A stretch of DNA of 44,763 bases, from positions 1 to 44,763 of the forward strand of contig CAUJDS010000041.1 of NCBI GenBank assembly GCA_963169695.1, written 5' to 3'. Below the pieces are notes generated by a model that saw only the letters and a list, made by a program, of their open reading frames with translations, did not search any database and was not told the origin of the DNA. The translations under genes were made by a program, and so were the position numbers. The stretch comes from Bdellovibrionota bacterium. GTDB lineage: Bacteria; Bdellovibrionota; UBA1018; CAUJDS01. Shown in pieces: positions 4,485 through 15,134 of this stretch; position 1 is the stretch's first letter; each line of letters opens with the position of its first letter.

Positions 4485-4542
4485 TCACACATCCGTGTGA
4501 ACTTCACACCGTTGTGTGATCAGATTTCACACGGATGTGTGA
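4485..4542. repeat. three tandem palindromes TCACAC-N4-GTGTGA
   Basis: Three 16-bp perfect dyads with identical arms follow one another: 4485-4500 (spacer ATCC), 4504-4519 (spacer CGTT) and 4527-4542 (spacer GGAT). The first and third are exact reverse complements of each other. Their centres are 19 and 23 bp apart. They are continuous with a second family of three dyads at 4545-4604. Repeated identical dyads usually mean cooperative binding of a dimeric protein; which protein is unknown. Confidence 0.8.
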
Positions 4543-4544
4543 AG

Positions 4545-4604
4545 TGGGCTGGGACTAACCCAAAATGTGGGTTGGATTCAGCCCAGTGGGCTGGTTTAAG
4601 CCCA
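4545..4604. repeat. three tandem dyads TGGGYT-N6-ARCCCA
   Basis: Three 18-bp dyads lie at 4545-4562, 4568-4585 and 4587-4604. The first two have one imperfect arm position each; the third is perfect. Centres are 23 and 19 bp apart and continue the spacing of the adjacent TCACAC array. Arms also pair across units (AAGTGGGCT at 4542-4550 with AGCCCACTT at 4599-4607), so the single strand could fold into a branched structure. Function unknown. Confidence 0.75.
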
Positions 4605-4748
4605 CTTGAGACTCCTCGAATCGAATAAAATACTGAGCGAGGCTGGCACACGGATTGCTCTAGTAACGAACGAACGACTTCTGAACATTGTCGGTTTACT
4701 GAATTGCCCGCCTTCATCCCGTCGATATCCGATTTCCAAAAGCTAACT

Positions 4749-4786: not shown

Positions 4787-5101
4787 ATGGAGAACAATGT
4801 TTACCCCCTTCTCCGTTCGAATTCTGAAACCCATACAGACGAAAATAAATTTGGTAAAAGAGAAATATCTGGCTTGGAGATTCGAAAAAATCCCGAGCCT
4901 GTGTTCTTTGAAAATCTGGAATGGATGACGTCTCGCGAAGCGGCTCAGTACTTGAGAAAATCCGCGGGAGCACTTCGGGTCATGGTCTGTCGCGGACAGA
5001 TTCCGACTCGAAAGTTCTTTTGTAGGCTCTACTTCAGGAAAACTGAGCTTGATTGCTTACTCGAATCCTCCTCCCAAAAAGGAGGAAGAAAATGGGAATA
5101 A
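4787..5101 (+). CDS. excisionase-like helix-turn-helix protein
   Basis: This 104-aa protein has a disordered N-terminal half and a C-terminal MerR/excisionase-type HTH (HTH_17 pattern): WMTSREAAQYLRKS at about residues 46-59, then VMVCRGQIPTRKF and LYFRKTELDCLL. Proteins of this kind bind DNA as excision factors or small regulators. It overlaps by 11 bases a truncated integrase gene, so together they look like the recombination module of a decayed integrative element. TAAGGA precedes the ATG. Confidence 0.7.
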   Translation: MENNVYPLLRSNSETHTDENKFGKREISGLEIRKNPEPVFFENLEWMTSREAAQYLRKSAGALRVMVCRGQIPTRKFFCRLYFRKTELDCLLESSSQKGGRKWE

Positions 5102-5325
5102 AATCCTACATCGAAAACAATCAAACGCTTTGGAGCGTCTATGTACACGTGAGATCCTCACGCAACCGTGCCATCCGAAAGCAACTGCATGCGAATGGAT
5201 TGCAATCCAAAGCCGAAGCCATCGCCACCGAAAGGAAACTGCTCAAAGAAGCATCCGAAGAAGTGGCACGCTTCGAAGGCATGGGGTGGAAGCCTTTGCG
5301 AGAATTTTTTACTCTGCCCGAGTAG
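5091..5325 (+). pseudogene. truncated tyrosine integrase, N-terminal arm-binding part
   Basis: Only 77 residues remain. They resemble the N-terminal arm DNA-binding domain of phage-type integrases: a beta pattern (TLWSVYVHVRSS) followed by a Lys/Arg-rich helix (SKAEAIATERKLLKEA). The catalytic R..HxxR..Y domain is absent. The ATG is preceded by an excellent ribosome site (AAGGAGG), so the fragment could still be translated. Immediately after its stop, in the same frame, comes the C-terminus of an unrelated amine oxidase, which marks a deletion or recombination joint. The integrase assignment rests on pattern and on the excisionase-like neighbour. Confidence 0.5.
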
Positions 5326-5328
5326 AAA

Positions 5329-5578
5329 GTCGATTCTCTTTTAGAACAAACCTATTTCCATGATTGGTCAGCCGATCCGTACGCGTGCGGAGTCTATAAC
5401 TATGTGACTGTGGATGGTTTGTCGGCCCAAGAATCCTTGGCCGAGCCCCTGAACGGGACTCTTTTCTTTGCGGGGGAAGCTACCCATTTTCATTGGATAT
5501 TCTGGGACGGCGAATGGTGCGATTATCAGTGGGACCAGAGTTGCGAAAGGAGTCTTAAAAAGCTTGGGGAAAGCATAA
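5329..5578 (+). pseudogene. C-terminal remnant of a flavin amine oxidase, frameshifted
   Basis: Translation from 5329 gives YFHDWSADPYACGVYNYV and then LNGTLFFAGEAT, the typical FAD-binding end of flavin monoamine oxidases. After GEAT the frame shifts by one base: reading from 5483 restores GYSGTANGAIISGTRVAKGV and a stop at 5576-5578, the usual family ending. So this is a dead gene with the first several hundred residues missing and a frameshift near 5480-5485. It joins directly to the integrase fragment. Confidence 0.75.
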
Positions 5579-5613
5579 GTCAGTAAGTCTTTGTAAGAGC
5601 GCTCATCCACACA

Positions 5614-14192: not shown

Positions 14193-15134
14193 ATGAAGGA
14201 TCCCTACCAAATACTCGGTGTTTCAAAAACTTCAACTCAGGATGAGATTAAGAACGCCTATCGAAACCTCGCTAAGAAATTTCATCCGGACCTCAATCCG
14301 GGCAATAAGACAGCGGAATCCAAATTCAAAGACGCGGCATCCGCCTACGAAATGATTGGAACACCCGAGGCACGAACCAAATTTGATCGTGGAGAAACGT
14401 TAGAACAGCAACAAGAACAGGCCCAAAGGCATGCTCGCGAATCACAAGGTGACCGTGGCCCCTTCTATCATCAGACGCAACAAGATGGTGGAAGGTATTC
14501 CTACTCCTTCGGAAAGGATATGGGTGGCGAAGATTTTTTTGAAAACCTGTTTCGATCGCAAGGTGGAGGCCGAGGTCAGAATCCCTTTCAAACGGATCGA
14601 ACCAACGTACCTGGCGAAGATCACCTTTACCAAATGTCTGTGGAGTTTCGAGATGCCATCTTAGGTGCAGCACGGGAGATTACACTGCCAACGGGCAAGC
14701 GCCTTCAAGTCAAGATCCCTCCCGGCGTAGAGACCGGAACGAAGCTGCGGTTCAAAAATCAAGGAGGCCCCGGAATCGGAAGTGCTCCTGCAGGAGACGC
14801 CTACGTAGAATTGACGGTAAAACCTTTAGAAGGATTCAAGCGTGACGGATTGGCGGTTGAAACAGAAGTTTCTATAAGCTTTATAGAAGCTCTTCTTGGA
14901 GCAAGCATCAAGGTTCCTACACTGGATGGCTCCGTTCTACTTACCGTTCCACCAAAAGTAGACACAGGGACTAGACTAAGGATAAAGGGCAAAGGCGTAT
15001 CTACTCCTAAGGGAAGTGGCGATCAAATTGTTACGCTCAAGGTGGTCATGCCAAAAAAAGTGGATCCAGAATTAGAAAATGCTGTGCGTGGTTGGGGCGA
15101 CAAGTTTGCCTACAATCCAAGGGAGGAAGCATGA
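14193..15134 (+). CDS. cbpA: CbpA-like DnaJ co-chaperone
   Basis: This 313-aa protein has an N-terminal J domain (residues 3-65, with the catalytic HPD at 31-33), a Gly/Gln/Phe-rich linker (about 75-130) and two beta-sandwich substrate-binding domains (from about 145, including LQVKIPPGVETGTKLRF). It lacks the cysteine zinc-finger repeats of DnaJ, so it is the CbpA type. It would stimulate DnaK ATPase and can bind curved DNA (known for the family). It overlaps its modulator gene by four bases. Confidence 0.88.
   Translation: MKDPYQILGVSKTSTQDEIKNAYRNLAKKFHPDLNPGNKTAESKFKDAASAYEMIGTPEARTKFDRGETLEQQQEQAQRHARESQGDRGPFYHQTQQDGGRYSYSFGKDMGGEDFFENLFRSQGGGRGQNPFQTDRTNVPGEDHLYQMSVEFRDAILGAAREITLPTGKRLQVKIPPGVETGTKLRFKNQGGPGIGSAPAGDAYVELTVKPLEGFKRDGLAVETEVSISFIEALLGASIKVPTLDGSVLLTVPPKVDTGTRLRIKGKGVSTPKGSGDQIVTLKVVMPKKVDPELENAVRGWGDKFAYNPREEA

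Follow-up and report, generated by a model that had tools for sequence, protein, structure and literature searches.

Introduction

Enhancer arrays at sigma-54 promoters are textbook knowledge, and the closest described systems are the NtrC-family UAS promoters of the NtrC/glnA, DmpR and CbrB type. The canonical GG-GC spacing of a sigma-54 promoter is 10, and spacings of 8–9 are unusual. Most work on integrative conjugative elements (ICEs) has dealt with repressors and SOS signals. Their known regulators, SetR/SetCD of SXT, ImmR of ICEBs1 and BisR/BisDC of ICEclc, work with sigma-70 and with repressors or dedicated activators. Triple operators with a spacing of about 20 bp exist in temperate phages. 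In an incomplete coverage of the literature, we found no paper describing sigma-54 enhancer arrays as the standard switch of an ICE family.

The locus described here lies on contig C41 of a Bdellovibrionota genome (2.79 Mb, 82 contigs); the window, the whole stretch of DNA analysed, is 44,763 nucleotides long. The locus resembles the NtrC-family UAS promoters in its -24/-12 promoter, in its multiple dyads (-74 to -178, with the -12 C as reference) on roughly one helical face, in the presence of rpoN and GAFTGA activators in the genome, and in the adjacent two-component activator genes of relatives. It differs from them because six dyads of two unrelated motif families share one array, because the arrays occur on mobile-element promoters (T4SS, xis) with the motif differing between elements, and because many relatives have a GG-GC spacing of 8–9. 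As in SXT, ICEBs1 and ICEclc, one regulator would coordinate excision and transfer genes through repeated operators, whereas here a sigma-54 promoter, AAA+ activators and histidine kinases are indicated. Phage OR/OL likewise has three like operators about 20–23 bp apart in a divergent intergenic region; unlike it, the present locus has no adjacent CI/Cro-like gene, carries a sigma-54 promoter, and has relatives that link arrays with activators, not repressors.

Results and Discussion

Array and promoter in the window

The main feature adjoining the array, a perfect -24/-12 promoter, was overlooked in the first-pass annotation. It follows the array at a distance of 40 bp and precedes the HTH_17 gene. 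Perfect TGGCACRNNNNTTGCW sites number five in the 2.79-Mb genome, and the reversed control pattern gave 0. The features are listed below, with dyad positions relative to the predicted start; C58 is another contig of the same genome.

4485..4500, no strand: dyad A1, TCACAC-ATCC-GTGTGA; centre 4492.5 (-177.5); identical 16-mer at C58
4504..4519, no strand: dyad A2, TCACAC-CGTT-GTGTGA; centre 4511.5 (-158.5); identical 16-mer at C58
4527..4542, no strand: dyad A3, TCACAC-GGAT-GTGTGA; centre 4534.5 (-135.5); identical 16-mer at C58
4545..4562, no strand: dyad B1, TGGGCT-N6-AACCCA; centre 4553.5 (-116.5); unique to the window
4568..4585, no strand: dyad B2, TGGGTT-N6-AGCCCA; centre 4576.5 (-93.5); unique to the window
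4587..4604, no strand: dyad B3, TGGGCT-N6-AGCCCA; centre 4595.5 (-74.5); unique to the window
4644..4659, + strand: sigma-54 promoter TGGCACACGGATTGCT (-24/-12, GG-N10-GC), perfect TGGCACRNNNNTTGCW match; predicted start about 4670
4787..5101, + strand: HTH_17 (excisionase-like) gene, Pfam PF12728; probable target of the sigma-54 promoter
5092..5325, + strand: N-terminal fragment (77 aa) of a tyrosine-type integrase, 42% identical to the first 79 aa of the intact L031 integrase

The six palindromes of two families reported earlier (three TCACAC-N4-GTGTGA and three TGGGYT-N6-ARCCCA) were recovered base for base, and all arms are exact. The dyad centres and their steps of 19, 23, 19, 23 and 19 bp were also as reported, and the spacing continues across the motif junction. 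The steps correspond to 1.81 and 2.19 helical turns (1.9 and 2.19 in the C58 array), in agreement with the earlier placing of the dyads on roughly one face. Of 300 dinucleotide-preserving shuffles of the window, none produced a triple array of exact like palindromes. No further TCACAC site was present in the window at two or fewer mismatches; genome-wide (one mismatch or fewer; 2.79 Mb, 82 contigs) the only other place was contig C58, with three sites. The TGGGYT motif was found in the window and nowhere else in the genome. Within the array, TCACAC copies 1 and 3 are reverse complements of each other.

From this arrangement, we consider it quite probable that the array is the enhancer (UAS) of the adjacent sigma-54 promoter, serving one or two activators and driving the xis-like gene of a decayed mobile element. 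The "complex operator" among the earlier suggestions was thus right in kind. As the TCACAC and TGGGYT motifs differ, two different dimeric proteins on one helical face are possible, and the TGGGYT triple may serve a second activator, giving a two-input enhancer, or another regulator.

A sigma-70-like element, TTGAGA-N17-AATACT, also abuts the last dyad (4606–4634), which speaks against the enhancer. The dyads could instead be operators for one or two repressors acting on this element, as in phage immunity, where triple operators about 20 bp apart have precedent. We regard this as improbable: the sigma-70 element matches at 9/12, a level that also arises by chance (shuffle mean 0.5). The sigma-54 site matches perfectly, another perfect one accompanies the only other TCACAC array, and relatives tie their arrays to sigma-54 activators rather than to repressors.

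Downstream of the promoter, the gene at 4787 is its probable target by position. The "broken integrase" of the first-pass annotation is indeed an integrase remnant, here redefined as the 77-aa N-terminal fragment at 5092–5325 by comparison with the intact L031 protein (384 aa). A C-terminal fragment of a flavin amine oxidase follows directly (5341–5586) and reads as a decayed island. With the integrase reduced to 77 aa and this second fragment behind it, the xis-int module appears partly decayed.

Protein binding and activation, which we infer, could proceed as follows. The TCACAC dyads would be occupied by dimers of an NtrC-family activator with a Fis-type HTH, and the TGGGYT dyads by this activator or by another one. 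Since the dyads are about two helical turns apart on roughly one face, the AAA+ domains of the bound activators could assemble across neighbouring dyads. DNA looping would then bring them to RNA polymerase–sigma-54 at 4644–4659, where ATP hydrolysis would open the promoter. The transcript from about 4670 would encode the excisionase-like HTH_17 protein and the integrase remnant, and the partly decayed module would continue to be expressed.

The second TCACAC array heads a T4SS operon

The C58 triple (14323–14381) lies upstream of TGGCACGGTGGTTGCT, another of the five perfect sigma-54 sites; both TCACAC arrays of the genome therefore have a perfect -24/-12 site downstream in the correct direction. 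The C58 dyads stand at -82 to -126 (-12 C as reference), and the positions of both arrays are within the range usual for sigma-54 enhancers. The 16-mers of C41 and C58 are identical at 48/48 bases, with the loops ATCC, CGTT and GGAT in the same order, while divergence is seen in the spacers (ACT vs ATGT; TCAGATT vs GTCGAGT) and the flanks outside the array show no homology. Because of this combination, selection rather than recent duplication seems to keep the TCACAC sites. The conservation extends to the four central bases of each dyad, which simple recognition of two half-sites does not require or explain, and this counts against the enhancer model in its plain form.

Transcription from the C58 promoter would enter the gene of a sigma-70-region-4-like protein and continue into an operon for VirB2, 3, 4, 5, 6, 8, 9, 10 and VirD4 (VirB names assigned by reading translations). 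As this contig also carries a large serine recombinase and arsenic and copper genes (L085 54–1868 and L015), the element is read as an ICE or similar. One array thus heads a VirB T4SS operon and the other heads HTH_17 and the integrase fragment, positions that would suit control of transfer or excision genes. With the same TCACAC enhancer at both places, one activator probably links excision-type and transfer genes and could turn on both the transfer operon of C58 and the xis gene of the window at once.

A recombination, replication or partition site, as first suggested, finds little room here. The window array is near xis/int remnants and the C58 copy is on a mobile-element contig, as an att, iteron or parS-like site of a mobile element could be. 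That copy, however, lies inside the element, with the T4SS operon on one side and the arsenic-resistance (ars) genes on the other, and neither at an end nor beside a rep or par gene; an integrase core-site layout is missing, and a promoter stands beside each copy. Such a site is hardly credible.

The loops kept at C58 and the reverse-complementary copies 1 and 3 could also point to hairpins in RNA or single-stranded DNA, serving as a structured leader, a terminator or a recombination substrate, and the array strand folds very well (z -9). Any tandem palindromes give such a fold, however, the array is upstream of the predicted start, no Rfam family matched, and the motifs of relatives change with the activator instead of preserving pairing. 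We give hairpins a very slim chance.

Exact paired TCACAC dyads, sought in 84,980 genomes and viral contigs, gave one Bacteroidota match before a T run (terminator-like) and one in-gene repeat in a viral contig, both unrelated. Single TTCACAC-N4-GTGTGAA sites in 369 genomes of the phylum numbered four besides our own; these were mostly in genes or by housekeeping genes, none had an activator close by, and chance would account for them. Against plasmids and phages, BLASTN returned nothing meaningful. The T4SS head protein had no match in named plasmids, the activator had generic homologues below 40% identity among the matches listed, and the accompanying search of viral contigs gave no match.

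Arrays at T4SS operon heads of relatives

We searched 369 genomes of the same phylum with three proteins (HTH_17, the sigma-like protein and the 150-aa second protein of the C58 operon) and ran a palindrome-array detector on the loci found. Arrays with other motifs were present upstream of T4SS heads, 70–240 bp upstream of a -24/-12-like element:

G318: ACTGTCA-N-TGACTGT, three times
G164 and G189: ATTCAG-N5-CTGAAT, three to four times
G350: TCTCTCA-N4-TGAGAGA, twice
G095: TGTTCG-N6-CGAACA

The dyads of G164, G189 and G162 are at nearly the same positions (about -238, -201, -181 and -113). Downstream of most arrays is the element GGCA[CT]-N-TTGC, which in 13 of 30 VirB2 regions stands on the operon strand at -941 to -1096 from VirB2 (opposite strand, 0). 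In G095, G090 and G098 it reads TTGGCCCNNNNCTTGTAATRG instead, with small variations. A strict N10 scan for -24/-12 sites in relatives gave few sites, and the family was revealed when GG-GC spacings of 8–10 were allowed. Spacing 9 occurs at a fixed place in L101, L104, L105, L107, L109, L110, L112 and others, and spacing 8 in L106, L108 and L031. These spacings, and the class III element, which ends in GT, weigh against the enhancer reading; spacings of 8–9 are possibly a lineage-specific variant of the sigma-54 promoter.

Two loci showed further details. In G318 (L104 921–980) three 22-bp tandem repeats with ACTGTCAC-TGACTGT dyads lie upstream of the T4SS head and look like a recent tandem duplication of an enhancer site. 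In G095 (L074, about 2045–2065) a perfect CGAACATGTGTTCG, similar to a LexA/Cheo box and a possible SOS input, sits inside the array that separates the activator gene from the T4SS operon.

Sigma-54 activators

The genome encodes sigma-54 and 13 proteins with strong Sigma54_activat domains. Genes for GAFTGA-motif activators were present in 19 of 40 T4SS-type regions, where the density in our own genome predicts about 3; the regions were picked by T4SS similarity and some come from similar elements, so the counts are not independent. Pfam detected receiver and Sigma54_activat domains in G339, G192 and G095; in G192 it also scored a Fis-family HTH above cut-off, and both G192 and G095 had histidine kinases. 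In G318, G192 and G350 a solute-binding protein gene is followed by a kinase and then the activator (in G318 and G350 the first two were assigned by reading translations).

The activators of G132, G192, G005 and G350 are 59–82% identical, and TCTCTCA/TGAGAGA sites are common to all four. The three of them with a complete HTH have the recognition helix SEATLYRW. The G318 activator is 45–48% identical, with the helix SESTIYRW and a partly similar half-site, ACTGTCA. This co-variation of activator and motif is the strongest argument at hand for activator binding at the arrays. Against the enhancer reading, no activator gene adjoins the array in the window or, within the stretch examined, the C58 array, and the array-bearing G164 and G189 have none within about 10 kb.

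In our own genome, an activator on contig C76 (L152 5032–6447), paired with a kinase, is no more than a candidate for the array activator. The kinase is 31% and 29% identical, over two parts, to the ICE-linked kinase of G095, and the activator is not specially close to ICE activators. Naming the activator by similarity to ICE activators was tried, and the comparison was not decisive. The C76 sensor kinase (L152 2576–4834) is split into two reading frames beside the intact sigma-54 activator, which may reflect a frameshift, decay or an assembly error.

Excision modules and the role of the HTH_17 protein

Relatives of the HTH_17 protein are present in 182 of the 369 genomes. In 4 of 30 HTH_17 loci (the window, G324, G354 and G320, all of one order) a -24/-12 site (GG-N10-GC, two mismatches or fewer) lies 74–143 bp upstream of the gene, at 74–118 bp outside the window. 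The window thus fits a recurring xis-int plan. In G320 xis and a sigma-54 activator gene point away from each other, and the dyad TTCGGA-AAAA-TCCGAA lies between them; G324 has a kinase-like gene upstream of its HTH_17 gene, together with TCCCAC-TTT-GTGGGA sites.

The HTH_17 protein had been proposed earlier as the binder of the array. The array does not travel with the gene: none like it was present at 29 other HTH_17 loci of the phylum except one, L031, where such an array is beside a decayed T4SS-head remnant. Judged from these loci and from the place of its gene downstream of the promoter, the protein is likely the target of array and promoter, not the binder.

The TGGGYT triple could nevertheless have a role of its own, the TCACAC triple alone being the enhancer and the TGGGYT sites binding a repressor, an architectural protein or the HTH_17 protein to tune the same promoter. 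Neither the C58 promoter nor any other part of the genome has the motif, and in the window its sites (-74 to -117) separate the TCACAC dyads from the promoter. The unbroken 19/23 spacing at the junction, the usual enhancer position of -74 to -117 and the HTH_17 relatives without such a motif make this division of labour doubtful, though a serious possibility.

Implications for gene transfer

An enhancer for the whole array remains our preferred reading, and the occurrence of the same enhancer before conjugation genes hints that these bacteria put gene transfer under a signal-controlled switch. More tentatively, with slightly less than an even chance, two-component sigma-54 activators govern the transfer operon as well as the excision genes in a family of conjugative elements across the phylum, every element uses a palindromic enhancer code of its own, and the window promoter is a two-input enhancer that reads two codes. 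Conjugation in such a group of elements would be gated by sensor kinases and sigma-54 enhancers, and transfer could answer outside signals, for which metals or small solutes are candidates judging from neighbouring genes. If element-specific codes are real, they could insulate the activators of co-resident elements from one another or wire them together. The activator/site pairs would form a natural series for studying the evolution of enhancer specificity, with the window as a possible natural two-input sigma-54 enhancer.

The window also contains an AbiEii-type nucleotidyltransferase toxin gene (370–1718, Pfam), which overlaps an AbiEi-like gene ahead of it. The two genes probably form a type IV toxin-antitoxin pair and share the variable region of the array.
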